A stretch of 64,000 nucleotides of DNA, taken from NCBI RefSeq assembly GCF_003853705.1, contig NZ_QTQI01000011.1, positions 124,001 through 188,000 of the forward strand, written 5' to 3'. Numbering within the stretch: the first letter of the stretch is position 1; each line of letters opens with the position of its first letter. The position numbers and the translations under genes are program-made. The notes below the pieces were generated by a model. It did no database searches, was not told the DNA's origin, and saw only the letters and a program-made list of their open reading frames with translations. The DNA comes from Burkholderia sp. Bp8992 (lineage in GTDB: Bacteria > Pseudomonadota > Gammaproteobacteria > Burkholderiales > Burkholderiaceae). Below, piece after piece: positions 34,611 through 53,160 of this stretch.

Positions 34611-34611
34611 G

Positions 34612-36637: not shown

Positions 36638-37900
36638 TCAAAAGAAGAACGTCGCGATCGCCTGCACGATCTCGCCCTGCGCCTGCGCGCCATAGACGCT
36701 GCGCGCCGAGCCGTGGTTGCTCTGCCATTGCACGGCGCAGTCGGTGCGTGGCCAGTGATAGCGCGCTTCGAGCCATGTGAAGTAGCTGTGGTCGTCGAGG
36801 TTGTAGCGCGCCATCGCGGTCAACCCCAGGTGCTGGACGAAGACGTCGGGCATCGATGCGTAGACGAACAGCGAGCGCCGTGTCATCAGTTCCTGCGCGG
36901 TGCCGGCCATGTCGCGATAGCGCCAGTATCGCGACGGGTCGCCTTGCAGTGCCCGCCATGCGGCGCCGCTCGCGCTGGCGCCGTCGTAGTCGTACTCGAG
37001 CGTCAGCGACAGCTTGTTTGCGAAGGTATGGGTGACGCCCGTCGCGAGCTTCGAGACCCAGGACGATGCGGTCTGCGCGAAATCGCCGACCGCGCTGCCG
37101 CGGCCGATCGCGTATTCGACGAACCCGACCGTCGCATCGTCGATCAGCGTGGTGGCGTTCACGCCCAACTGCGGTGCGATACCTTCGCCGCCGTACAGCA
37201 GCCACTGAGGCGAGAAATTGCCGAACAGGCGCTGCGACCCGCTCAGCATGTAGCGGGTGCGTGCATTCGTCGCACCGAGATCGGGATTGAAGGTCGCCTC
37301 GTTCGGATGCGTGTCGAGCCGCGGCGACACCAGCGCGGTCATCGAGCCGCCGCTCCAGAGCAGTTGCCCGCGCATCATCACGCTGCCGAGCCGGTTTTCG
37401 CGCAGGCTCTCGGGGTCGATCGAGACGACGGAGCGCAGTGCGCCGACCTTGAAGAAGTCCGTGGGATTGAAGCCCGACGCGACGCCTTCGCGCAGGTTCA
37501 CGCGGCCGAGGTCGACGAGCGCGTTCGGGCTCGCCTGCCAGCTCACATACGCCTGTTTCAGCGTGTCGACCGCGTTGTACCGCGACGTGCCCGCACGCCA
37601 TCCCGCATCGAAGCGATTCGAAACGATCGCCCGCCAGTTGCCGGACGTGCCGTCGTACGACAGCGTGTTCGATACGCGCGCGTTGTCGTTGAGCGTCACG
37701 GACGCGGCCTGGTTCGCCGCCGTGTAGTTCGCGACGGCCGCCTCGAAGGTGCCGCGCCAGTTGCTCGGCGTCACGGGAGCCGCTGCCGCCGTATCGGCGA
37801 GCCGCAGCGCGTCGCCGTCCGCGTCGTCGGCAGCGAGGGCCGGCTGCGCGGTCGCGACGCCCGCCGCACAGATCAGTATCGCGACCCGGGATCGCGCCAT
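36638..37900 (-). CDS. outer-membrane beta-barrel protein of the exporter operon
   Basis: A 420-residue protein with a signal peptide (VAILICAAGVATAQPALA) and alternating hydrophobic strands throughout, ending in the C-terminal phenylalanine (QAIATFFF) typical of barrels inserted by the BAM machinery. Clear strand repeats include ALVDLGRVNLREGVASGFNP and HTFANKLSLTLEYDYDG. Fold resembles DUF1302/alginate-type porins, but I cannot name the family with certainty. Its start is 4 bp after the lipoprotein-sorting gene stop, so they form one operon with the ABC transporter. Confidence 0.75.
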   Translation of the reverse strand: MARSRVAILICAAGVATAQPALAADDADGDALRLADTAAAAPVTPSNWRGTFEAAVANYTAANQAASVTLNDNARVSNTLSYDGTSGNWRAIVSNRFDAGWRAGTSRYNAVDTLKQAYVSWQASPNALVDLGRVNLREGVASGFNPTDFFKVGALRSVVSIDPESLRENRLGSVMMRGQLLWSGGSMTALVSPRLDTHPNEATFNPDLGATNARTRYMLSGSQRLFGNFSPQWLLYGGEGIAPQLGVNATTLIDDATVGFVEYAIGRGSAVGDFAQTASSWVSKLATGVTHTFANKLSLTLEYDYDGASASGAAWRALQGDPSRYWRYRDMAGTAQELMTRRSLFVYASMPDVFVQHLGLTAMARYNLDDHSYFTWLEARYHWPRTDCAVQWQSNHGSARSVYGAQAQGEIVQAIATFFF

Positions 37901-37903
37901 CGT

Positions 37904-38689
37904 CTAGTCGGCCTTGAAGCGGGCCAGGTACGCGCGCTGCAGCCACGCGTCCGGAATGTCGCGCCACGCGTAGTCGGAGTAGCGCATCACCGTGACCCAG
38001 CCGGGATCCAGCCCGTCGATGATGACGGTTTCCGTCGGCCGCGCCGCGCCCAACCGGTCCTGGTAGTGCCGGTAGTACGCAATCTTCAGCACGCTGCCGC
38101 TCGCCGCGAAGAAGCGCGCCTTGACCGGCCGCTTCGTATCGTTCGCGATCCACAGGTCGATCGCGTGGTACGTGACGTCCGCCGCGCGCGCCGTCAGGTG
38201 CAGCCGGTAGCAGTGCCGGGTCTGGTGCTCGCCGTCCGCCACGTTCTCCTCGCCCGCCAGCGACGCGTCGTAGTCGTTCGCCCAGTTGACGGTCACGACG
38301 TCGCCGTTCGCGGCCTGGCCGAGCAGGCGCTGCTGTGGCGAGATTCGCACGCTGGCCTGGCTCGACGGATCGTAGAACCACAGATCGTTGCCGTTCTTCA
38401 GCATCAGCTTGTTCGCGTCGCGGGCCGGGGCGACGAACTGCACCAGCGTGCGGAACTGGCTGGTTGCCGGGTCTGCCTTCGAGTAGATCTTCAGCACCTC
38501 GCTGTCCGTCTGCTGTCCATTGCGAAATTCGAGCAGGGTCGTCGTCAGGCCGAACGGTTTGTCGGGATTGCGCACCGCGTCGCTTTGCGCGAGCAGCTGT
38601 TGCGCCGACGGCTCCGCCGCCGCGGCCGCGATGGCGGCGAACGCGAGCAGCATCGCGGCGGCGCGCAGGATCCGGATGGAAACGATCAT
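37904..38689 (-). CDS. outer-membrane lipoprotein-sorting (LolA-like) protein
   Basis: A 261-residue periplasmic protein with signal peptide (AAAMLLAFAAIAAAAAEP) and the LolA-like half-barrel fold typical of the outer membrane lipoprotein-sorting family. Landmarks are SQFRTLVQFVAPARDANKLM, LKNGNDLWFYDPSSQASVRI and the late YRHYQDR with a D-P-G-W stretch. Such proteins accept lipidic substrates from an ABC extractor. Here the ABC permease/ATPase genes are directly upstream in the same operon, and a barrel gene is downstream. Confidence 0.8.
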   Translation of the reverse strand: MIVSIRILRAAAMLLAFAAIAAAAAEPSAQQLLAQSDAVRNPDKPFGLTTTLLEFRNGQQTDSEVLKIYSKADPATSQFRTLVQFVAPARDANKLMLKNGNDLWFYDPSSQASVRISPQQRLLGQAANGDVVTVNWANDYDASLAGEENVADGEHQTRHCYRLHLTARAADVTYHAIDLWIANDTKRPVKARFFAASGSVLKIAYYRHYQDRLGAARPTETVIIDGLDPGWVTVMRYSDYAWRDIPDAWLQRAYLARFKAD

Positions 38690-38704
38690 GGTAGCGGCTC
38701 CTGA

Positions 38705-40105
38705 TCAGGCGAAACGCAGCGCATCGACGATCGGCAGGCGGGCAGCGCGGTGCGCGGGCAGCCAGGCCGAGAACGTCGCGACCACCGTCACGCCGAGCGC
38801 GTAGCGCGCGATCATCCCGAACTCGCCCCACACGCGTACCGACAGCGCGACCGGATCGGTCTGTCCGGGCGGCGTCCAGTGCAGGCCGGCGCGGTTGATC
38901 GCGACACCCGCCGCGAGCGCGAGGACGGTGCCTGAAATCGCGCCACACATACCGAGCAGGCAGCCTTCGCAGACGAACAGGCGGCGAATGCCCGCGCCAC
39001 GCAGGCCGAGCGCGCGCAGCGTGCCGATCTCGTGCGTGCGCTCCATCACGGCCATGTTCATGGTGTTGCCGACCGTGAACAGCACGATTGTGGCGATCAG
39101 CGCCGCGATGAAGCCGAAGATCGCGCCGAACATGCCGGTGACCTGGCCGTACTGCGGATTCAGCGTCGCGAAGCCGAGCACCTCGATCGGCTCGCCCGCG
39201 AGCCGGGTGCGCAGCAGCGTCTGGATGCGGGCGCGCGCGGCCGGCAGAGCGGCCGTGTGTTTCAGCTGCACGGCGATGGAGGTCACCTTCGCATTCGGGC
39301 CGGTCCCGTAGACGAGCTGCTGCGCCTGCGGCAGATGCACCTGCACGAACATGTCGTCGATCTGCTTGACGCCTTGCTTCTGAGCCGAGATCACCGACAG
39401 TTCGGCGACGTTCGGTGCGCCGTACGCATTCGACGTCAGCAGTTCGAGACGAGCGAGCCCGCCGTGCCGCACCGGCTTCGCCGCGGCCTCGGCCCGCGTG
39501 AGCGACGCAATGTCGTCGGGCAGGTCCGACGCGCCAGCCGGGGCCGCCGCCGTCACCGGATCGCGGCAATCGGGTACGCGCAGTGCATCGCAGAGGCGCA
39601 GCACGCGCGCGACGCCCGTGCCTATCACGGCGGCATTCGCGGCGCTGCCGGTCAGCGCGACGGGCGTCGCCCGGTCGGCGAAGCCGTAGTCGTTCCACTG
39701 TCGCATCCGGTTCTGGTCGGCCACGACGATCCCGCTGCCCGAGACGGTGCGCGATACGCCCGCCGCGAAGTTGCCGGCGATGCCGTTGATCGTCAGCACC
39801 GGCGTCACGACCGTCACCTCGCGAGCCAGCTCGGGATCACCGAGCAAGGTGTCGATGATCTTCCGGTAGTCGGCGATCCCGTACGAGACGGGGTCGCCGC
39901 TGCCATACAGGAAATAGTCGCGGTGCTGGATCTGCAGATGGCCGCCCTGACGCACGTAGCTGGTCTGGAGTCCGTAATTGATGTCGCGTGCATAGCCGCC
40001 GAACAGCAGGATGGCGGACAGGCCGACCACCATCGCGAGCAGCGTGGTGGACGAGCGGCGGCGGTTGCGCAGCAGATTGCGGAAGGCGAGAACCCAGGTG
40101 CTCAT
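38705..40105 (-). CDS. FtsX/LolE-type ABC exporter permease
   Basis: A 466-residue inner-membrane permease. It has one N-terminal helix (LLRNRRRSSTTLLAMVVGLS) with a large periplasmic domain, then three C-terminal helices with the FtsX signature VGNTMNMAVMERTHEIGTLR followed by ALGLRG. The fold matches LolCE/MacB permeases, which extrude lipids, peptides or antibiotics from the outer leaflet of the inner membrane. The start overlaps the ATPase stop. Orientation and context suggest it loads the LolA-like protein downstream. Confidence 0.85.
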   Translation of the reverse strand: MSTWVLAFRNLLRNRRRSSTTLLAMVVGLSAILLFGGYARDINYGLQTSYVRQGGHLQIQHRDYFLYGSGDPVSYGIADYRKIIDTLLGDPELAREVTVVTPVLTINGIAGNFAAGVSRTVSGSGIVVADQNRMRQWNDYGFADRATPVALTGSAANAAVIGTGVARVLRLCDALRVPDCRDPVTAAAPAGASDLPDDIASLTRAEAAAKPVRHGGLARLELLTSNAYGAPNVAELSVISAQKQGVKQIDDMFVQVHLPQAQQLVYGTGPNAKVTSIAVQLKHTAALPAARARIQTLLRTRLAGEPIEVLGFATLNPQYGQVTGMFGAIFGFIAALIATIVLFTVGNTMNMAVMERTHEIGTLRALGLRGAGIRRLFVCEGCLLGMCGAISGTVLALAAGVAINRAGLHWTPPGQTDPVALSVRVWGEFGMIARYALGVTVVATFSAWLPAHRAARLPIVDALRFA

Positions 40106-40809
40106 TGGCAGGCCTCCTCGTGCACGGCGGCGGAGCGGGTTTCGACGACGCATCCGTCGCGAATCATCGCGACGTCGTCCGCGGCGGCGATCACCTGCGG
40201 GTCGTGCGACGAAAACACGAACGACGTCGCTCGCTCGCGCTGCATCGTGCGCATCAGCGCGATGATGGTCGCGCCCGTCGCGCTGTCCAGGTTGGCGGTG
40301 GGCTCGTCGGCCAGCACGAGTGCCGGCTCGGTGACGAGTGCGCGCGCGATCGCGACGCGCTGCTGCTGGCCGCCCGACAACTGGCCGGGCCGGCGATTCG
40401 CCTTGTCGCCCATGCCGACGGCGTCGAGCAGCGCGAGCACCCGTTCGCGTCGCCGCGCGCGGGCGACGCCCAGCAGGGTCAGCGGATATTCGACGTTCTC
40501 GAACGCGCTGAATACCGGCAGCAGGTTGAACGACTGGAACACGAACCCGACGTGACGCGCGCGGAAATCGGCCAGCGCATTCTCGCGCATCGCGTCGATT
40601 CGCTGGCCCGCGACCGTGATGGCGCCGCGCGTCGGGCGATCGATGCCGCCGAGCAGGTTGAGCAACGTCGTCTTGCCGCTGCCGGACGGGCCCGACAGCA
40701 CCGTGAAGCGGTTCGCGAGAATATCGAGCGACGCATCGTCGGCCGCCGCGACCGCGAGCGGGCCGGTTCCATAGGTTTTCGTGACATGACTCAAGCTGGC
40801 CGCCAACAC
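40102..40809 (-). CDS. LolD/MacB-type ABC exporter ATPase
   Basis: A 235-residue ATPase with Walker A GPSGSGKTTLLNLLGG, Q-loop FVFQSFNLLPVFSAFENVEY, signature LSGGQQQRVAIARAL and Walker B ALVLADEPTANLDSATG. The start chosen is a GTG at 40809, 5 bases after GGGAGG; another GTG at 40815 overlaps that ribosome site. It is the first gene of the leftward exporter operon, and a 377-bp gap separates it from the biosynthetic operon on the other strand. Confidence 0.85.
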   Translation of the reverse strand: MLAASLSHVTKTYGTGPLAVAAADDASLDILANRFTVLSGPSGSGKTTLLNLLGGIDRPTRGAITVAGQRIDAMRENALADFRARHVGFVFQSFNLLPVFSAFENVEYPLTLLGVARARRRERVLALLDAVGMGDKANRRPGQLSGGQQQRVAIARALVTEPALVLADEPTANLDSATGATIIALMRTMQRERATSFVFSSHDPQVIAAADDVAMIRDGCVVETRSAAVHEEACQ

Positions 40810-41186
40810 GGGCACCTCCCAGGGTATTCGATCGATGTCGCCACCTTAGCGGGAACCGCGGCCCCGTATTGCGCAGTGCGACGAACGGCGGAACGCGCGG
40901 ACGAACGGCATTCCTTCGCGATGAATGGCGGCCGTCAGCGAGCGCTGCCGCGCAGCGGTGCGGCGAGCCGGTCGCGGCCCGTCGGCGGCCGCACGACCGC
41001 GTTGCATTCCATCGGCCCCACGCGCGGTTCGTCGCCCGTTTCTGCAATTGGTCGCATGATCGTTTCTTTCGGCGACGAATCGATACACTCGCAGCCGATC
41101 AGCACTTGATCCGCACGACATCGGCCGACGTGAGAGCGGTCACCGGGGTGCGAGAAGCCAAAACACAGACATAACAAGGCATAAAA
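40810..41186. other. 377-bp divergent region between exporter and biosynthetic operons
   Basis: No gene seen. It must hold promoters for both. The right end is AT-richer and includes ATAACAAGGCATAAAAATG just before the next start, with a TTTGAGAGG tract. I found no clear sigma-70 promoter or strong palindrome. The shared region suggests joint control of the exporter and the biosynthetic operon. Confidence 0.45.
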
Positions 41187-41636
41187 ATGAGCCATACCAG
41201 GTTTGAGAGGGGGAGCGAGACGGCGCGGCCTGGCTTTCTTGCCCTTTGTCGCGTGATCCGCGATCCGTCCGATCCCGCGCGTTTCGCGGGCGCCGCGGAT
41301 CCGCGGCGGTATGACGACTGGTCGAGCGCACGGCCCGCGCTGCTCGTCATCGAGGCGCTGCATCAGTTCGCGGTCAAGGCGGCGCGCACGATGCACGGCG
41401 AGCCGGCGCTGATGGTGCCGGCACAGCTGCGCGAGCTGACGCTGCACCGCGTCGACGGCTATCCGCGGCTGGCGCTGGCCGGCACCGTCGCGAAACATGG
41501 CGACGGATACCGCGTCGAGGTGTCGGCGCGCGACGCCGATGCCGGCATGTTTCCGGCCGTCGCATCGGGTACCGTGTTCGTCGCGCTGATGCCGGCCCGC
41601 CCGCCCGCGTCGGCCGCGCCGGGAGACCGGCCATGA
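41187..41636 (+). CDS. hot-dog fold dehydratase subunit carrying the catalytic Glu
   Basis: A 149-residue FabZ/ApeP-like hot-dog protein, the first gene of the operon. The helix region ARPALLVIEALHQFAVKAAR corresponds to the FabZ motif around the catalytic acid, and Glu is present as E56. The strand LAGTVAKHGDGYRVEVSARD is present. The usual catalytic histidine (HFP-type motif) is missing. Its partner gene, directly downstream and overlapping, has the histidine but not the acid; the two probably form one heterodimeric active site. Related type II polyene pathways (aryl polyene ApeI/ApeP) also use paired dehydratases. Confidence 0.65.
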   Translation: MSHTRFERGSETARPGFLALCRVIRDPSDPARFAGAADPRRYDDWSSARPALLVIEALHQFAVKAARTMHGEPALMVPAQLRELTLHRVDGYPRLALAGTVAKHGDGYRVEVSARDADAGMFPAVASGTVFVALMPARPPASAAPGDRP

Positions 41637-42004
41637 TGCCCGCCGTCGCAACGCCCTCGGCCACGATCACCGGCGATCAGTTCGGTGTGATCGACGTGGC
41701 GAGCGCCGCACCGCTCTTCGACGAGCACTTCGAGCAGTTTCCCGTGCTGCCCGGTTCGTTCAGCCTCAGCCTGGTGATCTCGATGCTGTTCGACGCGCTC
41801 GGCCTCGCGGCGAACCGGCCGATTCCGGCGCTCACGGTTCGCAAGATCAGCTTCATCTGCCCGGTACGGCCGGGCGAGCGCCTGACCGCGCGCCTGCGAC
41901 GCCTGCAGCAGGACGGGGCGCGCACCACCGCGCACGTCGAACTGCGCAATGCCAAAGGGCAGGGCGTGATGGACGGCATCCTCAGCTGGGAGCACGCGGC
42001 ATGA
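41633..42004 (+). CDS. hot-dog fold dehydratase subunit carrying the catalytic His
   Basis: A 123-residue FabZ-like protein. The motif FDEHFEQFPVLPGSFSLSLV corresponds to the FabZ active-site histidine loop (H32 in HFEQFPVLPG), but the acidic residue that should follow in the helix is replaced (SFSLSLV). The start overlaps the stop of the previous gene (ATGA, with two ATGs in a row at 41633 and 41636), and its stop overlaps the ketoreductase start. With the preceding subunit it would dehydrate 3-hydroxyacyl-ACP. Confidence 0.65.
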   Translation: MMPAVATPSATITGDQFGVIDVASAAPLFDEHFEQFPVLPGSFSLSLVISMLFDALGLAANRPIPALTVRKISFICPVRPGERLTARLRRLQQDGARTTAHVELRNAKGQGVMDGILSWEHAA

Positions 42005-42729
42005 CGAAGCTCGCCATCGTCACGGGCGGCACCCGCGGGATCGGGCGCGCGATCGTCGACGCGCTGATCGCCGACGGCCACACCGTCTACTTCACCTACC
42101 GATCGAATCCGGAACTGGCCGACGCACTGGAGCGCGCGTACGACGGCGCGGCGCGCGGCTTTCGGGTCGACGGCGGCGACTGGGACGCCGTGCAGGCGTT
42201 CGCCGACCACGTGAACGCGGAGGCGGCCGTCGACGTGCTCGTGAACAACGCGGGCGTCAACGACGATGCGCTGCTGATCGGCAGCCCGTTCGCCCGCTAC
42301 TGGGAAACGCTGCGGATCAACCTCGGCGCGACGATGGCGTTTTGCCATGCGTTCGGCGACGGGATGCAGTCGCGCCGGCGCGGCGCGATCGTCAACGTGT
42401 CGTCGATCGCCGCGCGCAAGCCGAAGACCGGCAACGGCGCATACGGCGCGTCGAAGGCGGCGATCGAGCGCTTCACCAAAACGCTCGCGCTCGAGATGGC
42501 GCGCTTCGGCGTGCGCGTCAACGCGGTCGCACCGGGGTTCGTGCGCTCCGACCTGTTCGAGCGTTTTCTCGCGTCGCAGGACGCCGCGGCGTTCTACCGC
42601 CAGATTCCGATGCGCAAGATCCTCGAGCCCGGCCAGGTCGCGCGCACGGTCCTGCTGCTCGCGAACGGCTCGCTCGAAACGACGGGAAGCGTCGTCGATC
42701 TCGGCAATGGCGAAAACATCAGTGGCTGA
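42001..42729 (+). CDS. FabG-type 3-oxoacyl-ACP reductase
   Basis: A 242-residue short-chain dehydrogenase. The NADPH loop is TGGTRGIGRA, followed by DVLVNNAG; the catalytic residues are S135, Y148 and K152 (SSIAARKPKTGNGAYGASKA). It would reduce 3-oxoacyl-ACP intermediates. The start overlaps the dehydratase stop (ATGA). The operon lacks any enoyl reductase gene, so reduction probably stops at the enoyl stage and conjugated double bonds accumulate. Confidence 0.9.
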   Translation: MTKLAIVTGGTRGIGRAIVDALIADGHTVYFTYRSNPELADALERAYDGAARGFRVDGGDWDAVQAFADHVNAEAAVDVLVNNAGVNDDALLIGSPFARYWETLRINLGATMAFCHAFGDGMQSRRRGAIVNVSSIAARKPKTGNGAYGASKAAIERFTKTLALEMARFGVRVNAVAPGFVRSDLFERFLASQDAAAFYRQIPMRKILEPGQVARTVLLLANGSLETTGSVVDLGNGENISG

Positions 42730-42754
42730 CCCAGTGAATCAAGGAGAGTGGACC

Positions 42755-43111
42755 ATGAAGGAAGACATCAAGAACATCGTCGCGCAAATCCTGTATCTGA
42801 GCGGTCCCGAACAGGTGGCCGACTCCGCGTCGCTGTTCCGCGAGCTGAACATGAGCTCGATCGACTACGTCGACCTGTGCTACGAGCTCAAGGACAAGGT
42901 GGACAACCGCATCAGCCTCGAAAACCTGTGGCCGTTCAACCGGATGCTGCTCGATCCGCAATACCACACTGGCACCGAGTGGACCGAGGCCGGCTGGCGG
43001 CAGGTGTGCGACGTGATGAGCTGGAACGGCCACGAGAAATGCAGCCTGCAGGATCTCTACGAGCACTTCTCGGTGAACTACATCGAGCGCCGTATCGCGC
43101 AGTTCAGCTGA
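42755..43111 (+). CDS. acyl carrier protein, long form
   Basis: A 118-residue carrier protein with the phosphopantetheine serine in ELNMSSIDYVDLCYELKDKV (the motif position of D-S-L is S-S-I, Ser35). The protein is longer than typical ACPs (75-90 residues). The extra part after helix II is tryptophan-rich (LENLWPFNRMLLDPQYHTGT, then EWTEAGWRQVCDVMSWNG). This could be a docking region for a partner enzyme. AAGGAGAG lies 8 bases before the ATG. No PPTase gene is in the window, so activation would depend on one elsewhere. Confidence 0.8.
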   Translation: MKEDIKNIVAQILYLSGPEQVADSASLFRELNMSSIDYVDLCYELKDKVDNRISLENLWPFNRMLLDPQYHTGTEWTEAGWRQVCDVMSWNGHEKCSLQDLYEHFSVNYIERRIAQFS

Positions 43112-43206: not shown

Positions 43207-44304
43207 ATGTCGTACATCACCGGCCTCGGCATCGCGACGGCCGCTTTTCCCGACATCGCGTCGCTGCTGGACGTCGACTTCGCCGCGCGCGCGCCGCTCG
43301 CGCCGGCCGAGAAGCCCGGCGACTACGTGCGCGCCAACCTGCCGTTTCCGCTCGTGCAGCGCATGGCGCGCGAGGATCGTTCGCTGCTGAACCCGGGTTC
43401 GCGTCTCGCGCTGCAGGTGGCCGCCGAGGCGTTCGACGCGGCATCGGTCGGCCGGCCCTACACGGACGAAGAGCGCGAGCGGTTCGCGGTATTCACGGGG
43501 GTCGAGGGCGAGGACGCGACGATGGCCGTGCTCGCGCCGCTGCACGCGCGTCACGGCCTCGACGGCTGCGGCTACTTCGGCGAGGTCAAGGCGGACCTGA
43601 ATCCGCTCGACATGCTGCGCCTGCTGACCACCAACGCGCTGTACCAGATATCGAAGCTGTTCGCGCTGCGCGGCGAAGGCTATCCGCTGCAGCGGATGTC
43701 GCTGACCAGCCTGTGCGCGCTCGAGGAAGCGCATCGGCAGATCGAGGGCGGCGCGATCGACCGGGCAGTCATCGCGGCCGTTGGCGACATGACGTCGGCC
43801 GACAACGTCGCGGCGTTCGAGAAGATGGGTCTGCTGCGCACGACGTCGCACCCGGTCGGCATCGTGCCCGCGTTCGGGGCCGTTGGCGCCGTCGTCGAAC
43901 GCACGCCGCGCGACGGGTGCGCGCCTTGCGCGCAGGTGCTCGACGTGCATTCGCTGTACAAGCCCGACACGTCCGTGTCGAGCGCTGACTGGTCGAGGCT
44001 GTTCGCCCGCTTTCCCGGCGAGGCCGCGCTCGGCGTGCCGCACGTCGTGCTGTACCAGAACGGCGAGCCGTCGCTCGGTAAGGCGGAGCGCAATGCCGTG
44101 CAGCATGCGTGGCCGAATGCCGTCGTGCACGCGTACAAGCCGCATGTCGGCTATACCGGCCGGGCGAACAACCTGATCGACCTGGTCCTCGCGATCGCGG
44201 ATCCGGCCATCCCGGTCGGCGCGCCCGTGCTGGTCAACGGCATTGGCGTGTCGTCGGGCCTCGGGGCGATCCTGGTACGCAAGCTGAGCGGGGTGGGGCG
44301 ATGA
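43207..44304 (+). CDS. chain-length-factor-like ketosynthase homologue
   Basis: A 365-residue thiolase-fold protein, shorter than a full KAS. The alignment to KAS places MSLTSLCALEEAHRQIEGG at the active-site cysteine (C170 present). The second catalytic histidine is replaced by tyrosine (Y316 in PHVGYTGRANNL, normally GHTxGA), and the HGTxT loop is degraded (VHSLYKPDTSV). It is therefore probably a chain-length factor partner of the next gene rather than a competent synthase, although the retained cysteine is unusual. It overlaps that gene by 4 bp. Confidence 0.7.
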   Translation: MSYITGLGIATAAFPDIASLLDVDFAARAPLAPAEKPGDYVRANLPFPLVQRMAREDRSLLNPGSRLALQVAAEAFDAASVGRPYTDEERERFAVFTGVEGEDATMAVLAPLHARHGLDGCGYFGEVKADLNPLDMLRLLTTNALYQISKLFALRGEGYPLQRMSLTSLCALEEAHRQIEGGAIDRAVIAAVGDMTSADNVAAFEKMGLLRTTSHPVGIVPAFGAVGAVVERTPRDGCAPCAQVLDVHSLYKPDTSVSSADWSRLFARFPGEAALGVPHVVLYQNGEPSLGKAERNAVQHAWPNAVVHAYKPHVGYTGRANNLIDLVLAIADPAIPVGAPVLVNGIGVSSGLGAILVRKLSGVGR

Positions 44305-45575: not shown

Positions 45576-47038
45576 AGTTCGCGTCGCTGCTTGCACGGGA
45601 CGCGAACTGGCAGATCGTGCTGCACGGGGCGCGCCTGACGGCGGAAGACCTGCGCGCGCGGCTCAGGGCTGCCCGGCGCGCGCTCGGTACGCTGGAGCCG
45701 CACCTGCGCGGGCGCGGTTGCCTGATCGCGGTCGGCTTCTCGGGGTTCGACTATTTCCTGTTCACGCTGCTCGCGTCGACGCTCGGCTGCCGGATCGTCC
45801 TGTGCGACCCGAAGATGCTGTCCGCCGCGCTGCGCCAGTACCGGCTCGATGCGCTCGCGGTCGTCGCGACGCGGTCGATCGCGTGCGACGGGCCGCCGGT
45901 CGTCGTGCTCGACCCGGCCATGGCCGATGCCGAAGCGTCCGGGCCCGATACGTTCGCGTGGGCCGACCCCGGCGCGCCGCGCGCGCAGATCGTCTTCATG
46001 ACGTCGGGCACGACGAGCGCGCCGAAGCTCGTCGTCTACGACGAAGCGCAGCTCGTCGAGAATGCGCTGGCGGTCGGCCGCTATCTGGGCGTGCAGCCCG
46101 GCGACGGCGTGCTGTGCATGTTCCCCACGCACTACATGTACGGCTTCTCGACGATGATGAACGGCCTGCTGGCCGGCGCGACCGTCTGGCTCGAACGGGC
46201 GTCGCTGACCGCGCACGAGGTACTCGGCTACCTGGGCAGCGGCCGGATCCGCTTCGTGCCGCTGATCCGCAGCATTGCCGAGCGCGTGTGCGACCTGGCC
46301 GAGGCGACGCCGGGCATGCGGTTCGACGGAATCGTCGTGCTCAATGCATCCGACCGCATCTACGCGGCGCAGGTGCGCCGCCTGCTCGCGCTCGGCGCCT
46401 GCGTGTGGAACAACTTCGGCCAGACCGAATCGGGGCCGCGAATCTTCGCGCTGCCGCTCACGCCGGACGACCTGCCGCACGTCGATTCGTACTGCTTCGA
46501 AGGCGTCCTCGCGCCGGGCCGCCCGATCGATCCGCGCATCGAGCTGTCGATCGTCGACGCGCAGGGCCGGCCGTGCGCGCCCGGCGAGCCCGGCCATCTG
46601 CTTTACCGCACGCCGTATGCGATGCACGGCTATCTGCTGCCCGACGGCAGCCTGCGGCGGTTCACGACGCTGGAATCCGGCGACCTGGTGTTCCGCCGCG
46701 ACGACGGCGTGGTGTTCTGGGTCGGCCGCCGGGACGAGACGGTCAAGTGCAACGGCCGGCTCATCAACGTCAGCCTGCTGCACCAGCATTTCGATGCGTA
46801 CGACGACATCGCGAAGAGCTATTTTCTCGCCGATCCGCAGACCGGCGCGCTGACGGTGTTCGTCGTGCCCGGCCTGACGCCGGCCGGCGCGGACGTGGAT
46901 TTCAAGGCACGCATCCTGAGCCGCTACCGGGCCGCGTTCCCGCTGTATCCGCGCATCGCCGACGTGCTGTTCGTCGATGACCTTCCGATCACGAGCACCG
47001 GCAAGATCTCATTGCGGCTCCTGCGCGAAAGCGCGTGA
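45572..47038 (+). CDS. acyl-activating AMP-dependent ligase
   Basis: A 488-residue adenylate-forming enzyme. The P-loop is VFMTSGTTSAPKLVVYDE (A3 motif), with FGQTESGPRIF and the aspartate motif SGDLVFRRDDGVVFWVGRRD. The C-terminal catalytic lysine motif is DDLPITSTGKISLRLL. The N terminus is compact compared with long-chain acyl-CoA synthetases. The start overlaps the ketosynthase stop. It probably activates a carboxylic acid, either the starter or the finished chain, as adenylate and loads it onto the carrier protein or CoA. Confidence 0.85.
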   Translation: MKFASLLARDANWQIVLHGARLTAEDLRARLRAARRALGTLEPHLRGRGCLIAVGFSGFDYFLFTLLASTLGCRIVLCDPKMLSAALRQYRLDALAVVATRSIACDGPPVVVLDPAMADAEASGPDTFAWADPGAPRAQIVFMTSGTTSAPKLVVYDEAQLVENALAVGRYLGVQPGDGVLCMFPTHYMYGFSTMMNGLLAGATVWLERASLTAHEVLGYLGSGRIRFVPLIRSIAERVCDLAEATPGMRFDGIVVLNASDRIYAAQVRRLLALGACVWNNFGQTESGPRIFALPLTPDDLPHVDSYCFEGVLAPGRPIDPRIELSIVDAQGRPCAPGEPGHLLYRTPYAMHGYLLPDGSLRRFTTLESGDLVFRRDDGVVFWVGRRDETVKCNGRLINVSLLHQHFDAYDDIAKSYFLADPQTGALTVFVVPGLTPAGADVDFKARILSRYRAAFPLYPRIADVLFVDDLPITSTGKISLRLLRESA

Positions 47039-47063
47039 CCGCGGCCTGAACCAGGAGCCCACG

Positions 47064-48299
47064 ATGTCCGAGCGCACGACCCGCTTCGATTCCTCCGCCG
47101 TGAGCGAAGCGCTTTCGTACGATGCCCGCTATGCGCGTTTGCTGCCGGCGGGCGTGGCCAGCTACGCGGCTTTCCGCTCGCAGGTCACGATCGAGACGGC
47201 CGACGACCTGAAGCGGCGCGTGCTGGACCGCCTCGATCACGACGGTCTCGCCGGCGCGACGTTCTACACCACGTCGGGCACGAGCGGCGAGGTCAAGCTG
47301 CTGCTCAACGCACCGGCGCGCAAGCGGCCCGACACGTCCTACGGCCGGGCGCTCGCGAACGCGCTGGCGGGCACGGCGATCGCGCCGACCGACCGGGTGG
47401 CGAACCTGTTTACCGCTGGCGGCTTTTCCACGCTGTACGACGGCGTGAACCGGCTGCTGGAAGCGATCGGCGCGAACGTACTCCCGATCGGGCGGCTGGA
47501 CGCATACGGTGCCGATTTGCCCGCGATGCTGAACCTGATCGGCCGCGCCCGCCCCAACGTCCTGGTCGGCACGCCGACGAGCGTGCTGCAATGCCTGCGG
47601 CTGCTCGACGCGTACGGCGTCGATCTCGACGTGACGAAGATCCTCTACACCGGCGAGGCGTTCACGGAGCGCAAGCGCGCGATCGTGCAGCGGCGCTGGC
47701 GCGATGCCGCATTCTTCGGGCTGTACGGCGCGACCGAAACGGGCTTTCTCGGCTATCACACGCCGCGCTGCGCGGAAGGGCATTACCACGTGCTTGACGA
47801 CTGGTTCTTTCTCGAAGAGGAGGACGGGCAACTCCTCGTGACGAGCCGCGCGAACCCGGGCCTCGCGATGCTGCGCTATCGGATCGGCGATCGCGTGCGC
47901 GTCGGGCCGTCGGTGCGCTGCACGTGCGGCGAGGGCGGCTCGGTCGTCGTGCTGCAGGGCCGGACCGATCAGCGCTTCAAGTTCGCGGGCAACCTGGTCA
48001 GCACCGAGCTGCTGGCGCAACGGCTGGCGGCGTGCGCCGGCCGTCCGCTCGATTGCCAGTTTCGCTTGGCCGTCGACACGCACGGGCGCGACTGCCTGAC
48101 GGTCGCGCTGGATCTGGGCGGCGACGAGCTCGCGCCGCTCGCGTCGCGGCTCGCGGGCGCGCTGCTCGAGATCGAGGACGTGCGCGAATGCATCGACAAG
48201 GGCGAGGGCCGCCTCGACGTGCTCGGTCGCGACGCCTTGCGCTTCTCCGCGCGCCAGAAGCTGCCGCGCCTGATCGACGAGAGGCATGCCCATGTCTGA
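47064..48299 (+). CDS. phenylacetate-CoA ligase-like adenylating enzyme
   Basis: A 411-residue protein of the PaaK-like branch of adenylate-forming enzymes: TFYTTSGTSGEVKLLLN (P-loop), YGATETGFLGYH and the RIGDRVRVG segment. The C-terminal part is short, with RTDQRFKFAGNLVSTELLAQ. Its cysteine cluster CTCGEGGSV is unusual. Because the operon already has one ligase, the two may act on different substrates, such as a starter acid and an amino or hydroxy acid. A good AGGAGCC site lies upstream of the ATG at 47064. Confidence 0.8.
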   Translation: MSERTTRFDSSAVSEALSYDARYARLLPAGVASYAAFRSQVTIETADDLKRRVLDRLDHDGLAGATFYTTSGTSGEVKLLLNAPARKRPDTSYGRALANALAGTAIAPTDRVANLFTAGGFSTLYDGVNRLLEAIGANVLPIGRLDAYGADLPAMLNLIGRARPNVLVGTPTSVLQCLRLLDAYGVDLDVTKILYTGEAFTERKRAIVQRRWRDAAFFGLYGATETGFLGYHTPRCAEGHYHVLDDWFFLEEEDGQLLVTSRANPGLAMLRYRIGDRVRVGPSVRCTCGEGGSVVVLQGRTDQRFKFAGNLVSTELLAQRLAACAGRPLDCQFRLAVDTHGRDCLTVALDLGGDELAPLASRLAGALLEIEDVRECIDKGEGRLDVLGRDALRFSARQKLPRLIDERHAHV

Positions 48300-49755
48300 C
48301 GATCGCGCTACCGTCGCGTCTGCCGCGTCTGCCGCGTCTGCCGCGACCTCGACGTCCGCCGCGTTGGCTTCGACGCGCGCGTCGCGGGCCGACCGCATGC
48401 GGCAGTTCGCGGCCGAAGTGCGTGCGACCTGGCTGATGCTCTATCCGATGGTGCTGTCGTCGATCTTCGGCTACTGCATGACGCTGTTCGACTATCGCTG
48501 GATTCGCGACCTGCCGGCGGAGGACATGGCGCTGCTCGCGCTCGTCAACGGCAGCGTGGCGACGTTCCTGTTCCTGCTCGGCAAGAGTTTCGAGGAGTCG
48601 TTCGTCGCGGTGTTCGCCAAGGCGCCGCGCGAGGACCAGGGCCGGCTGTTCGTGCAGAGCCTGGTGTTCGCGGGCGCGATCGGCGCGCTGGTCGTGCTGG
48701 CGCTGATCGGCACGCGGGTGCCGCTGATGACGTTCATTTCCGGCGGCCATTTTCACGGCGAACGCATGTTCAGCTACTACGCGCTCGTGATCGGCAGCTT
48801 TCCGCTCACGCTGCTCAGCACCGCGCTTTCCGCGGCGATGCGCACGTACGGCGACACCAAGTCGCCCGCCCGCATCAGCATCGCATGCGGCGTGGTCAAC
48901 AACATCCTCGATCCGCTGCTCGTGTTCGGGCTGTTCGGCCAGCATCCGTCGCTGCAGCTGTTCGGCCTCGCGCTGACCTCGTGGATCACCAAGAGCCTGT
49001 ATCTTGGCTGGTGTGTCCGCTGCATCCGCCCGCGGCTGCGCCGCGAGCAGGTCGTGCTGCCGCGCCCCGGCGTGGAATGGCCGACGCAGCGCCGGCTGCT
49101 GCACATCTTCCTGCCCTCGGCCGCACTCGAGGCGCTGACCTTTCTCGCGAATACCGCCGTCTATTCGCTGATCGCCCGCTACGGCGTGCGCGCGATCGGT
49201 GGTTACGGCATCGGCTTCGAGCTGATGACGATCGGATTCATCCTCATCAAGGGCCTGAGCATGGTGTTCATGATCCGGATCGGCCATCTCGTGCGCAGCC
49301 GCGCGCCGTCCCGTGCGGCCCTGCAGTCGGTGATGCTGCTGGGCGTGCTGTTCACCGCGGCGATCAGCATCGCGTTCTTCCTGCTGCGCTCGCTCGCGCT
49401 GCGTTTTCTCGCGTCCGACGTCGGCGTGATCGCGGTTGCGACCGCGCTGCTCGACTACGTGCCGCTGTTCATTTTCAGCTATCTGCTGACGAACCTCGTG
49501 ACGGGCTGCTTCCAGATTCTCGAACGCCCGGCGCGCGCGATGGCGCTCGGGCTGTTCTTTTCATGGATCGTCACCCCGGGTGCGATCTACTTCGGCGTCA
49601 CGCACCATCTCGCGCTCACCCAGCTGTTCGCGCTGCTCGCGGGTGTGAGTGTCGTGCGCCAGGCCGTGTACCTGACGATTTTCCTGCGGCTCATGCGCAG
49701 GCTCGGCGCCGCGCCGGCCGCAGCTCCGGCCGGCGCGCGCCCCGCAGCCGGATGA
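48292..49755 (+). CDS. MATE-family exporter
   Basis: A 487-residue inner-membrane transporter with about twelve hydrophobic helices in two similar halves. The N-terminal half contains LMLYPMVLSSIFGYCMTLFD and LGKSFEESFVAVFAK; the middle has TYGDTKSPARISIACGVVNN, a typical MATE motif. The C-terminal half contains RYGVRAIGGYGIGFELMTIG. The ATG at 48292 has AGAGG 7 bases upstream; an ATG at 48286 lies too close. The start overlaps the preceding ligase gene. It is a likely export pump for the operon's product across the inner membrane. Confidence 0.85.
   Translation: MSDDRATVASAASAASAATSTSAALASTRASRADRMRQFAAEVRATWLMLYPMVLSSIFGYCMTLFDYRWIRDLPAEDMALLALVNGSVATFLFLLGKSFEESFVAVFAKAPREDQGRLFVQSLVFAGAIGALVVLALIGTRVPLMTFISGGHFHGERMFSYYALVIGSFPLTLLSTALSAAMRTYGDTKSPARISIACGVVNNILDPLLVFGLFGQHPSLQLFGLALTSWITKSLYLGWCVRCIRPRLRREQVVLPRPGVEWPTQRRLLHIFLPSAALEALTFLANTAVYSLIARYGVRAIGGYGIGFELMTIGFILIKGLSMVFMIRIGHLVRSRAPSRAALQSVMLLGVLFTAAISIAFFLLRSLALRFLASDVGVIAVATALLDYVPLFIFSYLLTNLVTGCFQILERPARAMALGLFFSWIVTPGAIYFGVTHHLALTQLFALLAGVSVVRQAVYLTIFLRLMRRLGAAPAAAPAGARPAAG
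48316..48342 (+). repeat. three tandem copies of a 9-bp unit in the MATE gene
   Basis: GCGTCTGCC is repeated three times in frame, encoding Ala-Ser-Ala repeats in the disordered N terminus of the MATE protein. Changes in copy number would not shift the frame, so phase variation is not expected. Confidence 0.6.
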
Positions 49756-49799
49756 TTCCACGACCGTTGTACCCCTAGACCTCACGACTGGAGACCTGC

Positions 49800-50471
49800 A
49801 TGCGTACCAACACCCCCGCCGAAGTCAACGCCGACACCTACGATCACTATGTCGACACGTTCACGCTCGAATGGAACCGCAATCTGGTGCAGCGCGTCGA
49901 GCACGAGCTCGCGCAGCGGCGCATCGCGTCGGGCAGCTTGCTCGATGTCGGCACCGGTACCGCGCGTACGCTGATAGAGCTGGCCCGCGTCCCGTCGCTC
50001 GCGCCGCTGGGCTTCGTCGGCGTCGACTACTACGACGACATGGTGCAGCGCGCCGAACAGAACGTGCGCGCGGAAGGGCTGGAAGGACGGATCGCGATCC
50101 GCGCCGGCGATGTCCACGCGCTGCCGTTCGACGACGGCACGTTCGTCGCGGTGATCGGTCGTTCGGTCGTGCATCACTGGGCCGACCCGGTCGGCGCGTA
50201 CCGTGAGATCTTCCGCACGCTGGCGCCCGGCGGTTTCGCGCTGATTCACGAACCCTGCAGCGATCCGGCGCCGGAGGCGCTCGCGTTCTTCAACGAGCGG
50301 CGCGCGGCCGCGGGCGTTCATCCGGTTCATCTCGACGGCAAGTTCACGGTCGCGGAATCGGTCGGGCACCTGCATGAAGCCGGTATCGGCGAGCACGCCA
50401 GCGTATCGAAGGGGGCGGGGATGCTCGCGATCGGCTTCGAGGTGCTGATCGCGAAACCGGCAAAGCAGTAA
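49800..50471 (+). CDS. SAM-dependent class I methyltransferase
   Basis: A 223-residue methyltransferase. The SAM-binding loop is LLDVGTGTARTLIELARVP, with the acidic VGVDYYDDMVQRAEQNV and the third motif DVHALPFDDGTFVAVIGRSV. It belongs to the small Methyltransf_11 class without extra domains. The ATG is preceded by GGAG at 49790. Placed between the exporter and the citrate-synthase-like gene, it would methylate the product or a precursor. Confidence 0.85.
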   Translation: MRTNTPAEVNADTYDHYVDTFTLEWNRNLVQRVEHELAQRRIASGSLLDVGTGTARTLIELARVPSLAPLGFVGVDYYDDMVQRAEQNVRAEGLEGRIAIRAGDVHALPFDDGTFVAVIGRSVVHHWADPVGAYREIFRTLAPGGFALIHEPCSDPAPEALAFFNERRAAAGVHPVHLDGKFTVAESVGHLHEAGIGEHASVSKGAGMLAIGFEVLIAKPAKQ

Positions 50472-50485
50472 GCGGAGCATTGCCG

Positions 50486-51658
50486 ATGCGAACCGATCAC
50501 GACCTGCCGGCGCCGGACGCCGCCCGTCCGCGCGCCGCACGCGACGAAGGCGAGATCGATGCGGTGTCGATCTCGCCCGACCGGCTGTCGGTACGCGGCG
50601 TCGATCTGCTGCAGCTGATCGAATCCGTCGATTTCACTGCCGCGATCCTGCACGTGCTCACGGGCCGGATGCCGGACGCGGGCGACGTGCGCGCCCTCGA
50701 CCGCGCACTGGCGGCGCGGCTGGCCGACGACGGGCCGACCGACGACGGCCTGCTCGCCGCGCAATTGGCCCGCCGTCAGCGCCGGCCCGAGGTGTTCCTG
50801 GTCTCGGCGATCGCGGCCGGGCTGGCCGCCGGGCCGCAGGCGCGGCCGGTTGCGTGGCCCGACGCGTTGTCGGGCATCGGGCAGGACGACGACGTGGCGA
50901 CGGGCCTGGGCATCGTCGCCGTATTGCCGCGCCTGCTGGCGGCGTGGCGCGCGGTGGACGACGAGGCGCCGGTTCGGCCTCGGCCGACGGACGCCGCGCG
51001 CGGTTTCAGCGCATCGGTGCTGGACTGCCTGTGCGGCGGAGAATCGCGCGACGCACAGGCCCGACTGTTCGACGTGCTGCTGGTGGCGCTGCATGGCGGC
51101 TTCGGTCTCGTCGCGCCGACCATCGCACTGCCGCGCTTCTCGGCGAGCACCTACGCGAGCATCGACCTGAACCTGATCGCGGGCATGACGGGCAGCGGTT
51201 CCGCGCACGTGGGCGCGTGCAGCGACGCGACGCGGTTTTTCGCGAGCCTCGTCGGCCGGCCTTCCGCGGAGATTCGCGATCGCGTCGCGCAGCGCGTGCA
51301 GGTGGGCGACCGGATTCCCGGCTTCGGTCATCCGCTGCTCGAGTGCGATCCGCGGCCGGCCGCGCTCGAGCGCCACGCGGTGCGGCTGGGAGTCGACGGC
51401 GCGGCGTTCGATGCGTACCGGGCCGTATGCGGCGCGATGCAGGACCTGCGCGGACTGCCGCCGAACATCGACTCGGCCGCCGCGGCGATCCTGCTCGAAC
51501 TGGGCGTGCCCGCCGTGCTGGCCACGCCGGTGTTCCTGTTTGCGCGGATGCCGACGATGCTCGCGCACGCGTTGCAGAAGCGGGCGCATCCGCCGTTCGG
51601 CCAGACCCGGCCGGTCGCGCGCGAACGCCTTGCCGCGCTGCCGAAGGCCTGGATCTGA
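50486..51658 (+). CDS. citrate-synthase-like enzyme
   Basis: A 390-residue protein of the citrate/2-methylcitrate synthase fold. The family pattern is seen in FSASVLDCLCGGESRDAQAR, in GSGSAHVGACSDATRFFASL and in the catalytic loop GDRIPGFGHPLLECDPRPAA. The late segment GLPPNIDSAAAAILLELGVP corresponds to the active-site aspartate region (D in N-I-D). The N-terminal part differs from housekeeping enzymes. In this operon it could condense an activated chain or acyl-CoA with a 2-oxo acid to give an alkylcitrate-type group. The start at 50486 has GGAG 10 bases upstream. Confidence 0.75.
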   Translation: MRTDHDLPAPDAARPRAARDEGEIDAVSISPDRLSVRGVDLLQLIESVDFTAAILHVLTGRMPDAGDVRALDRALAARLADDGPTDDGLLAAQLARRQRRPEVFLVSAIAAGLAAGPQARPVAWPDALSGIGQDDDVATGLGIVAVLPRLLAAWRAVDDEAPVRPRPTDAARGFSASVLDCLCGGESRDAQARLFDVLLVALHGGFGLVAPTIALPRFSASTYASIDLNLIAGMTGSGSAHVGACSDATRFFASLVGRPSAEIRDRVAQRVQVGDRIPGFGHPLLECDPRPAALERHAVRLGVDGAAFDAYRAVCGAMQDLRGLPPNIDSAAAAILLELGVPAVLATPVFLFARMPTMLAHALQKRAHPPFGQTRPVARERLAALPKAWI

Positions 51659-51705
51659 CGCCGGCTCGCCGGCGCCCCTCAACCCGAGATTGGATCGACA
51701 CCGAC

Positions 51706-52575
51706 ATGCTGACCAACCTGCCGCTTGCACCGCATTGCGCGGCCAACGATACCCAGCACCGCATCGACTTCGTGAAGACGCAGATCCATCGCTGGATCGA
51801 CGAGATGTTCGTCTCGCCCGACCGGCACGATCTGCGCGCGTGTTTCGCGAAGACGCTGCTGATCCGCAACTACCTGCTGTCTCCGGTGCTCGACGCGAAC
51901 GAGACCGAGCGCTTCCTGCGCGACGCGACGGTGCGCGAGTACATGAAGCGCTTTCAGGCGCTGTCGCTCGACAACGAGGTCCGCTTCGAGCGGCAGATGA
52001 GCGACGTGCTGCGCGCCGGGCCGTCGAGCGAAGGGTTGCTGCTGATCATCAAGGAATACTACGCGGAGATCTACCGGCTGCTCGCGAGAACCGAGATCTT
52101 CCTGTCGGACATGTCTGCCGGCTCGACGGTGGCGATGGTCGGCTCCGGCGGGATGCCGCTGTCGCTCCTGTTCATGCAGTCGTTCAGCGGCGCCCGCATC
52201 GTTGGGCTGGATATCAGCGAGGAATCGCTCAGAACCGGCGAGCGGTTCGTCGATCACCTGTGCGCATCGCACCCGGCGCGTTATCGCCGAGCGGCGATTG
52301 AGATGGTTCACGCGGATGGCGCGGTGTACGACTACGGCGCATGCGACATTGTTATCCTGTCGATTCACATCGAGAACAAGGTGGAGATCGTCGAACGGAT
52401 TATTGAGACGGCGCCGCGCGATCGCCGCGTGATCGTGATCGAGCGGCAGGTGCAGGGGCTCGGACAGTATTTCTATCCGAACTACGGGTTCGATTCGGCC
52501 GGACTGCCGCTCGTGAAGCTGGCCACGCTGTGCTCGTCGCTGCTGGTGAGCACGGCCTATCAGCTCGACTGGTAG
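51706..52575 (+). CDS. nicotianamine-synthase-like SAM-binding enzyme
   Basis: A 289-residue protein whose C-terminal half resembles nicotianamine synthase and opine-metallophore aminobutyryltransferases. It has VAMVGSGGMPLSLLFMQSFS, then GARIVGLDISEESLRTGERF, CDIVILSIHIENKVEIVERI and the end region QGLGQYFYPNYGF. These enzymes take the aminobutyryl group of SAM instead of its methyl. The N-terminal half is a long helical domain (FVKTQIHRWIDEMF) without a known match. It follows the citrate-synthase-like gene by 47 bp. The exact reaction is unknown. Confidence 0.65.
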   Translation: MLTNLPLAPHCAANDTQHRIDFVKTQIHRWIDEMFVSPDRHDLRACFAKTLLIRNYLLSPVLDANETERFLRDATVREYMKRFQALSLDNEVRFERQMSDVLRAGPSSEGLLLIIKEYYAEIYRLLARTEIFLSDMSAGSTVAMVGSGGMPLSLLFMQSFSGARIVGLDISEESLRTGERFVDHLCASHPARYRRAAIEMVHADGAVYDYGACDIVILSIHIENKVEIVERIIETAPRDRRVIVIERQVQGLGQYFYPNYGFDSAGLPLVKLATLCSSLLVSTAYQLDW

Positions 52576-52584
52576 GAGGGCGGG

Positions 52585-53160
52585 ATGACGACGAGCGAGA
52601 TTCGTTCCGGCGGAATCGGCCTGTTCCATGCGTGGGAGCGGCAGGTGCTCGCGCTGTACATGGACGCGTTTACGACGGGGCCATATGCCGGGCACTACCT
52701 GGACGAGGCGGCGGAGCGCGGCTGGATCTACGGACTGTTCACCAAGCATGCCGCGCGTTGCCATCTGTGGGCGGCCGGCGACACGCTGGCCGGTTTCCTG
52801 CTGTCCGCCGATGCGGGCTACGACCGCAAATTGCCGGTGTCGCTGCGCGCGACGCTCGGCGACGGGCCCGTAATGTCGATCGCCGAGCTGGCGGTTGCCC
52901 CGGACTGGCGTTCGCGCGGGCTCGGCGAGGCGCTGGTGCGGCACTGCGTCGGCGAGGCGGCGCCCGGCTATCGCGACATCATCGTGCGCAGCAACGGCAA
53001 TGCGCTTGCGGCGCACCGACTCTACCGGCGGCTCGGGTTCGAGCCTTTCGGCTCGGTGCGGGTGCCGAACGAGATGAGCGAGATGCTCGGCGACGGGCGA
53101 CGCGGCGTCGAGTGGGTCGACAAGCAGTATTTCCGCTATAAAGTGACTGGCGATGGCTGA
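52585..53160 (+). CDS. GNAT-family N-acetyltransferase of the biosynthetic operon
   Basis: A 191-residue acetyltransferase with the acetyl-CoA motif IAELAVAPDWRSRGLGEALV and the final NALAAHRLYRRLGFEPFG. The first 90 residues carry helices with HAWERQVLALYMDAFTTGPY, which may form the acceptor pocket. It is the last gene of the rightward operon, starting 9 bp after the previous stop with a GGAGGG site. An N-acyl transfer to an amine on the product (for example one introduced by the nicotianamine-synthase-like enzyme) is a reasonable guess. Confidence 0.75.
   Translation: MTTSEIRSGGIGLFHAWERQVLALYMDAFTTGPYAGHYLDEAAERGWIYGLFTKHAARCHLWAAGDTLAGFLLSADAGYDRKLPVSLRATLGDGPVMSIAELAVAPDWRSRGLGEALVRHCVGEAAPGYRDIIVRSNGNALAAHRLYRRLGFEPFGSVRVPNEMSEMLGDGRRGVEWVDKQYFRYKVTGDG

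Follow-up and report, generated by a model that had tools for sequence, protein, structure and literature searches.

The DNA analysed here, referred to as the window, is a stretch of 64,000 nucleotides from Burkholderia sp. Bp8992 (contig NZ_QTQI01000011.1, positions 124,001 to 188,000), and it contains a conserved unit of 20 genes at positions 33,878-53,160 of the window that resembles a type II polyketide synthase (PKS) locus with its own exporter (Table 1). Thirteen of the genes form a rightward operon (41187-53160), and four leftward genes, encoding ABC, FtsX, LolA-like and barrel-like proteins, run divergently from it (36638-40815). Both groups had been described in a first-pass annotation of this DNA, and all of the rightward genes are present; the accompanying statement that nearly all of them overlap or lie within 60 bp holds for 11 of the 12 junctions, the exception being a 95 bp gap (at the starts used) between the genes of the acyl carrier protein (ACP) and of a protein resembling chain length factors (CLF). 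Rfam and tRNA scans of the window returned no matches.

Three other Burkholderia genomes (G001, G017 and G020) carry the whole block with matching ends: there, the DNA alignments start at 33,878 or 33,881 and end at 53,135 or 53,139. In a fourth genome (G002), it is cut by the contig end: the contig starts within the operon, and the alignment runs to 53,163 on the right. Because these ends are shared, the unit is taken to include a LytTR response regulator, a sensor kinase and a DUF6622-like gene, all of which were missed when the start of the locus was first set at 36638. The ratios of nonsynonymous to synonymous substitution rates (dN/dS) lie between 0.05 and 0.49 in 60 of 60 comparisons (20 genes against the three other Burkholderia genomes), which indicates that the genes are maintained under purifying selection. 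The top value belongs to the DUF6622-like gene, whose start is uncertain, homology with distant copies beginning at about residue 60. This gene is present in every cluster whose sequence covers that part, and it adjoins or sits inside the PKS operon in three more distant genomes, G144, G201 and G407 (window 35736-36446; L037:13448-13984 in G407).

G144 and G201, which belong to the same family and, by the search grouping, to another genus, hold a single block with 18 of the unit's 20 genes at 34-71% identity; the methyltransferase and citrate-synthase-like genes are the sole two not found in 40 kb of either. G407, from the same phylum, has a reduced cousin consisting of genes for a LytTR protein, ACP, CLF-like protein, ketosynthase (KS), PaaK-type ligase, nicotianamine synthase (NAS)-like protein, DUF6622 protein, two dehydratase-like subunits (DH1 and DH2) and ketoreductase (KR), followed by arylamine-N-acetyltransferase-like, ATP-grasp, second PaaK-type ligase and flavin adenine dinucleotide (FAD) oxidoreductase genes. 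The methyltransferase profile has one weak match in G407, 16 kb off, and the response regulator and citrate-synthase-like profiles are without match there (40 kb, E 1e-3). At L037:14378-14965 and L037:16020-18265, the G407 locus holds a second membrane protein gene and the arylamine-N-acetyltransferase-like and ATP-grasp genes, while GNAT is without match. This gene set suggests a different route to amide formation. The core common to the clusters is ACP, CLF-like protein, KS, DH1, DH2, KR, PaaK-type ligase, NAS-like protein and DUF6622 protein.

Within this core, the KS retains its catalytic Cys175, His316 and His352, which are invariant in an alignment of seven sequences and present in G407 too. 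Its identity is 49-96% to the seven other locus KSs and 28-36% to FabF, FabB, aryl-polyene, two Streptomyces plasmid and ten other KS-family proteins, and FabF-type NCBIfam models score it at ~275-276 bits against a cut-off of 494. In a tree of 24 rows, made up of the locus KSs, six phage- or plasmid-type neighbourhoods or yardsticks and ten KS-family genes (from G001, G144 and G407; nine further matches were used only in part), the locus KSs form one clade with 100/100 support and a long stem, separate from the FabF, FabB and aryl-polyene KSs compared. Owing to a long-branch warning from the tree program, the claim is limited to the unity of this clade and leaves aside its position. The first-pass annotation had named as refuting its view either of two outcomes, one being that the KSs were ordinary FabF relatives lacking conserved linkage; that outcome did not materialise, since the KSs stand apart and their linkage to the other genes is conserved.

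The KS partner (365 aa) is without KS motifs, and its best match to a solved structure has an E of 0.029; by sequence, its similarity to known CLFs is weak or absent. Serine (Ser165) occupies the KS-cysteine position in eight of eight sequences, in a register that rests on weak alignments, and a cysteine five residues further on (Cys170, seven of eight) is out of register. The predicted KS/CLF-like pair stands, with catalytic residues kept in the one and serine for cysteine in the other. The ACP has Ser35 in six of six aligned sequences and in G407, and its profile weakly matches both E. coli aryl-polyene ACPs (82% and 49%). Of the two dehydratase subunits proposed earlier, DH2 is borne out by its His-Phe...Pro-Gly motif with invariant His32 (alignment of seven), and its profile has a weak match (44%) to a small E. 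coli aryl-polyene protein. For DH1, neither Pfam nor NCBIfam gave a match (with E relaxed to 5, two unrelated-looking models appear, at E 0.04 and 0.17), and it is read as a hot-dog protein because of its predicted fold (pLDDT 74), nearest to thioesterases and FabZ. By analogy with the paired aryl-polyene dehydratase, DH1 and DH2 may share one active site. No enoyl reductase was detected among the 20 genes in Pfam and NCBIfam scans, as expected from the first reading, and the sole SDR protein scores best as a 3-oxoacyl-ACP reductase. The locus thus combines the features of a highly reducing type II PKS, namely a Cys-His-His KS, a cysteine-less partner, and ACP, KR and DH proteins without an enoyl reductase, with the ACP and DH2 under Pfam cut-offs and DH1 recognised by its fold.

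The NAS-like protein had been named on sequence motifs, and at that level the match is marginal (27.4 bits against a Pfam cut-off of 27.1, and 33.7 against 350 for the CntL subfamily model). The assignment fares better in the fold search, where, from a modest model, the top 12 PDB matches are all MtNAS or CntL (E 4e-9 to 6e-6). E91, E95 and Y123 are invariant in four sequences, the CntL alignment covering the S-adenosylmethionine (SAM) domain only. The gene is found in G144, G201 and G407, and it is linked to the PKS-like core in all eight clusters.

The exporter assignment likewise draws on gene neighbourhoods. The barrel-like protein has no Pfam match, and it is read as a barrel because of its signal-like start, C-terminal Phe and neighbours. 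Among plasmids, the best LolA-like homologues (15 of 26 records) sit in ABC-FtsX-LolA-barrel sets, two records of which were inspected: L069:7733-11976 and L070:6665-11188 (Paraburkholderia ginsengisoli and Aliiroseovarius crassostreae). In both, barrel profile matches adjoin the LolA-like genes. The P. ginsengisoli set has as neighbours a phosphopantetheinyl transferase gene and very long genes with SDR and P450 annotations, and that of A. crassostreae is near KS, KS-like and AMP-ligase genes. Such biosynthetic neighbours favour small-molecule or lipid export over general lipoprotein sorting. The proposal that the divergent operon exports the product of the pathway is upheld to this extent, its genes staying linked to the core and its relatives adjoining other biosynthetic clusters.

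The tailoring genes had been held to match no known pathway, which is true of the whole set and incorrect for the citrate-synthase-like/methyltransferase pair. The nearest structures to the citrate-synthase-like protein are of citryl-CoA lyase and methylcitrate synthase, and His243, His284 and Asp331, which we take to be the catalytic residues, are kept in five of five sequences at positions matched to a citryl-CoA lyase. Homologues of the pair lie adjacent to each other in two further records. In B. cenocepacia L071 (14386-16396; 131 and 130 bits), they are accompanied by genes for an acyl-CoA dehydrogenase, an AMP ligase and ABC/FtsX/LolA-like proteins; in the Rhodobacteraceae plasmid L068 (9638-11442; 145 and 100 bits), a long gene next to them has a KS match. 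The pair is thus found in three distinct lipid or PKS-type clusters (window 49800-51658, L071 and L068), one of them outside Burkholderia. L071, a record without annotation, is probably the afc locus, judging by gene content that matches the accessible part of PMC6301696. The sections available of PMC12186527 report knock-outs of afcS and afcT, name BolR/BolS as homologues, assign the O-methyl-malate end to AfcS/AfcT, and describe the FAD oxidoreductase AfcF/BolE as acting with AfcS. By analogy, the pair may form an O-methylated malate/citrate-type end here too, though without an AfcF partner. Its absence from G144 and G201 marks it as accessory.

Table 1. Genes of the conserved unit, with window coordinates and the main evidence for each assignment
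Feature	Position	Strand	Evidence
LytTR response regulator	33879..34619	-	Pfam Response_reg and LytTR; 93% in G001, 70% in G144
LytS-type sensor histidine kinase	34612..35742	-	Pfam His_kinase and HATPase_c; 57% in G144
DUF6622-like membrane protein	35736..36446	+	Pfam 20.9 bits (cut-off 27); G407 homologue 35.7 bits
Outer-membrane-barrel-like protein	36638..37900	-	Signal-like N-terminus, C-terminal Phe; 56% in G144, 50% in G201
LolA_like periplasmic protein	37904..38689	-	Pfam PF17131 129.9 bits
FtsX/LolC-type permease	38705..40105	-	Pfam FtsX; NCBIfam lolCE 65 bits, under cut-off
LolD/MacB-type ABC ATPase	40102..40815	-	Pfam ABC_tran; NCBIfam LolD 210.8 bits (cut-off 307.75)
DH1 dehydratase-like subunit	41187..41636	+	Predicted hot-dog fold; invariant Glu56 in helix (alignment n=7)
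DH2 FabZ/MaoC-like dehydratase subunit	41633..42004	+	Pfam MaoC 25.6, FabA 19.9 bits, both under cut-off; His32 motif
FabG-type ketoreductase	42001..42729	+	Pfam adh_short 155 bits; NCBIfam best 3oxo_ACP_reduc, under cut-off
Single ACP with C-terminal extension	42755..43111	+	Pfam PP-binding 19.1 bits (cut-off 20.8); Ser35
CLF-like KS partner without cysteine	43207..44304	+	Pfam ketoacyl-synt 36 bits; Ser165 at Cys position
Ketosynthase, Cys175/His316/His352	44301..45575	+	Pfam N and C domains; own clade 100/100
Acyl-AMP/CoA ligase 1	45572..47038	+	Pfam AMP-binding 94.8 bits
PaaK-type ligase 2	47064..48299	+	AMP-binding 20.5 bits, under cut-off; NCBIfam DVU1553/PaaK types under cut-offs
MATE exporter	48286..49755	+	Pfam MatE 56.4 bits
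Class I SAM methyltransferase	49800..50471	+	Pfam; resembles L071 methyltransferase; not in G144/G201
Citrate-synthase/citryl-CoA-lyase-like protein	50480..51658	+	Pfam 111.8 bits; resembles L071 protein; not in G144/G201
NAS-family-like 3-amino-3-carboxypropyl transferase candidate	51706..52575	+	Pfam 27.4 bits (cut-off 27.1); fold search
GNAT acyltransferase	52585..53160	+	Pfam Acetyltransf_1 45 bits

With the CLF-like protein as query, a pattern search whose reach is limited to close relatives found two loci in the species-genome collection, in B. cepacia LK29 and B. paludis MSh1, and within the genus the gene was found in 4 of 65 genomes, these two included. Searches of further genome samples gave 3 of 249, 1 of 60, 11 of 398, 1 of 289, 2 of 97 and 1 of 295 genomes; all of these samples, the 65 genomes among them, overlap, vary in threshold and each count the centre genome itself. 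Nine of the 11 genomes from the phylum search were discarded because their matches reached 26-33 bits only, eight of these within very long proteins. The plasmid collection held no match to the CLF-like or NAS-like proteins at E 1e-3, and the operon DNA gave a single 47-base match to plasmids. The flanks appear unrelated, as none of 36 pairs among nine left and right flanks of 4-21 kb from five genomes matched (megablast, E 1e-10). At ~91% identity, the right flank matches large plasmid records from Burkholderia cenocepacia, B. pyrrocinia and B. arboris, which we take to be the third replicon of the B. cepacia complex; the window thus comes from a bacterium like those of this complex. To the left of the block, 329 bases match the end of hipA (window 32985-33315). 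The block site (window 32985-33315 and 53323-53360) is a variable site on a large secondary replicon, with a hipA remnant on its left; the same site holds 1.7 kb in B. pyrrocinia, comprising the remaining hipA and a helix-turn-helix gene, and 5.4 kb of other DNA in B. cenocepacia.

On balance, we consider it probable that the unit is a self-contained, horizontally moving variant of a highly reducing type II PKS, with its own exporter, that joins an aminocarboxypropyl group derived from SAM and an unsaturated acyl chain. It would work in the manner of ishigamide and aryl-polyene systems, presumably as a separate branch. The starter would be loaded by a ligase onto the only ACP and elongated with malonyl units by the KS/CLF-like pair, and the KR and two-subunit dehydratase (DH2 His, DH1 Glu) would leave one double bond per round for want of an enoyl reductase. 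An amine or another nucleophile would receive a 3-amino-3-carboxypropyl group from SAM through the NAS-like enzyme, and the PaaK-type ligase and GNAT would link the acyl portion with the amino portion. The citrate-synthase-like/methyltransferase pair, confined to Burkholderia, would add an O-methylated malate/citrate-type end. MATE would take the product out of the cytoplasm, the ABC/FtsX/LolA-like/barrel proteins would put it in or across the outer membrane, and the LytTR pair would turn the unit on. A more far-reaching and rather doubtful version is a new product class, in which a type II PKS conjugated chain carries a NAS-added 3-amino-3-carboxypropyl amino acid and, in Burkholderia, an O-methyl malate/citrate end as well, giving a two-headed polyene that the Lol-like module would deliver to the outer membrane.

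Several observations weigh against the preferred reading. The product and the enzyme activities are predicted from families, folds and neighbours. The NAS-like model is modest (pLDDT 68; PDB matches with TM 0.35-0.48 and rmsd 7-12 A), and the alignment used to place the NAS catalytic Glu and Tyr covers the SAM domain only. Against E. coli aryl-polyene proteins, the CLF-like profile did not match the CLF, the locus KS being matched weakly (31% probability), and the DH1 profile matched nothing; this counts against close kinship with them. In G407, the DH1 match is weak (18.9 bits), and 40 kb searched at E 1e-3 gave no match to the ligase 1, MATE, GNAT, sensor kinase, FtsX, LolA-like or barrel profiles. 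No FAD domain was matched among the 20 genes, which thus lack a counterpart of AfcF/BolE. In the parts of the afc papers that could be consulted, antifungal activity requires neither the citrate synthase nor an ABC transporter (PMC6301696), and loss of the outer-membrane channel AfcI leaves production as in the wild type (PMC12186527); the pair and exporter cassettes need thus not be essential in this unit either.

Three other explanations have to be weighed. In KS-CYF-type pathways, such as those of cispentacin and coronafacic acid, one condensation on a ligase-loaded keto acid and a cyclisation yield a small ring building block and no polyene. The short, motif-poor KS partner with no structural match better than E 0.029 is much like the described AmcG, a ligase gene follows the KS, and the KS matches AmcF at 148.7 bits; this score, however, is far under the AmcF cut-off of 325 and under the FabF-type scores of ~276. 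There was also no AmcG-type NCBIfam match at E 0.01 (the presence of such a model in the library was unchecked), and the unit has a KR and two dehydratase-like proteins besides. We regard this pathway as unlikely. Similarly improbable is a modified fatty acid or lipid pathway like those of AFC-BC11 and bolagladin, in which the PKS-like genes would build the special acyl tail of an envelope aminoacyl lipid, a conjugated polyene not being the purpose. The pair and the ABC/FtsX/LolA-like genes are common to the unit and the afc-like locus, but the pair is only accessory here, an AfcF-type FAD oxidoreductase is lacking, and afc, in the text available of PMC12186527, activates myristate, the only synthases named being KAS III-like, with no KS/CLF pair.

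The NAS-like enzyme and a citrate-type head could also make a lipid-tailed chelator; citrate-type ends chelate metals. The NAS family comprises 3-amino-3-carboxypropyl transferases, and the enzymes described in the accessible part of PMC10491745 serve metal carriers. Against such a metallophore, which we regard as the least probable of the three, the domain scans of the 20 genes matched neither an opine dehydrogenase nor a TonB-type receptor. The more far-reaching reading, the two-headed polyene, would, if true, make this the first NAS-family enzyme found working with a type II PKS; literature searches gave no earlier case.

No publication was found for this gene set among the matches listed in searches on NAS with polyketides or ketosynthases, Burkholderia type II polyketide polyenes and B. 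paludis clusters, the scope of which excluded preprints and MIBiG. By antiSMASH, B. paludis has 43 clusters, 29 of which are labelled 'putative', according to the accessible part of its species paper, which does not name this one; Burkholderia is absent from the main text of a type II PKS catalogue (PMC10132072). What has been delimited is a real, conserved biosynthesis-and-export unit, whose core includes a NAS-type enzyme and whose malate-capping-like pair is borrowed. The unit resembles an assembly line for an uncommon unsaturated fatty compound, switched on and exported by genes of its own. In three lineages, a reduced type II PKS core is tied to SAM chemistry of the NAS type, and the 20 defined genes are open to deletion or reconstitution. 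The evidence further suggests that several envelope-lipid or PKS pathways share two movable cassettes, namely the pair and the ABC/FtsX/LolA-like exporter genes, and in genome mining such exporter sets may flag envelope-targeted products.

Among known systems, thailandene (org), the first candidate compared, is an iterative type I PKS product, and it has no counterpart in the unit. Aryl polyene clusters (E. coli CFT073 locus; PMC8358021, as far as accessible) share discrete KS, partner, KR, dehydratase subunits, ACP and ligase, as well as a LolA-family protein. They differ in having two ACPs and a second active KS, whereas among the 20 genes there is one ACP, with no second cysteine-bearing KS; MMPL, DUF3261, GT2 and lysophospholipid acyltransferase genes are absent here, and NAS-like, GNAT, MATE and ABC/FtsX genes are found instead. 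The window KS does not group with the aryl-polyene KSs in the tree, the E. coli ApeO/ApeR labels being assigned by position. With the ishigamide-type PKS (Iga11-Iga12), the unit shares the KS-CLF logic, and its KS matches structure chain 6kxd_A, presumably Iga11, at 131.5 bits and FabF structures at a higher 186.5 bits; the ishigamide gene set, we assume, differs in tailoring and exporter genes. The KS-CYF systems (PMC10698177, in the portion available) have in common a KS with a short motif-poor partner, an ACP and a ligase, and differ in that the unit adds a KR and a DH pair and stays below the AmcF cut-off. Compared with the CntL/NAS family, the predicted helical and Rossmann fold and the SAM-domain alignment to CntL are the same, while here an opine dehydrogenase partner is missing and a PKS-like core is linked. 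The afc and bol clusters, in their accessible descriptions, build lipopeptides, use AfcF/BolE and, in the case of afc, start from myristate, and no KS/CLF-like pair or NAS-like gene is named there or matched in L071; in common with the unit, they have the citrate-synthase-like and O-methyltransferase pair (AfcS/AfcT; BolR/BolS) and, in L071, the ABC/FtsX/LolA-like genes.

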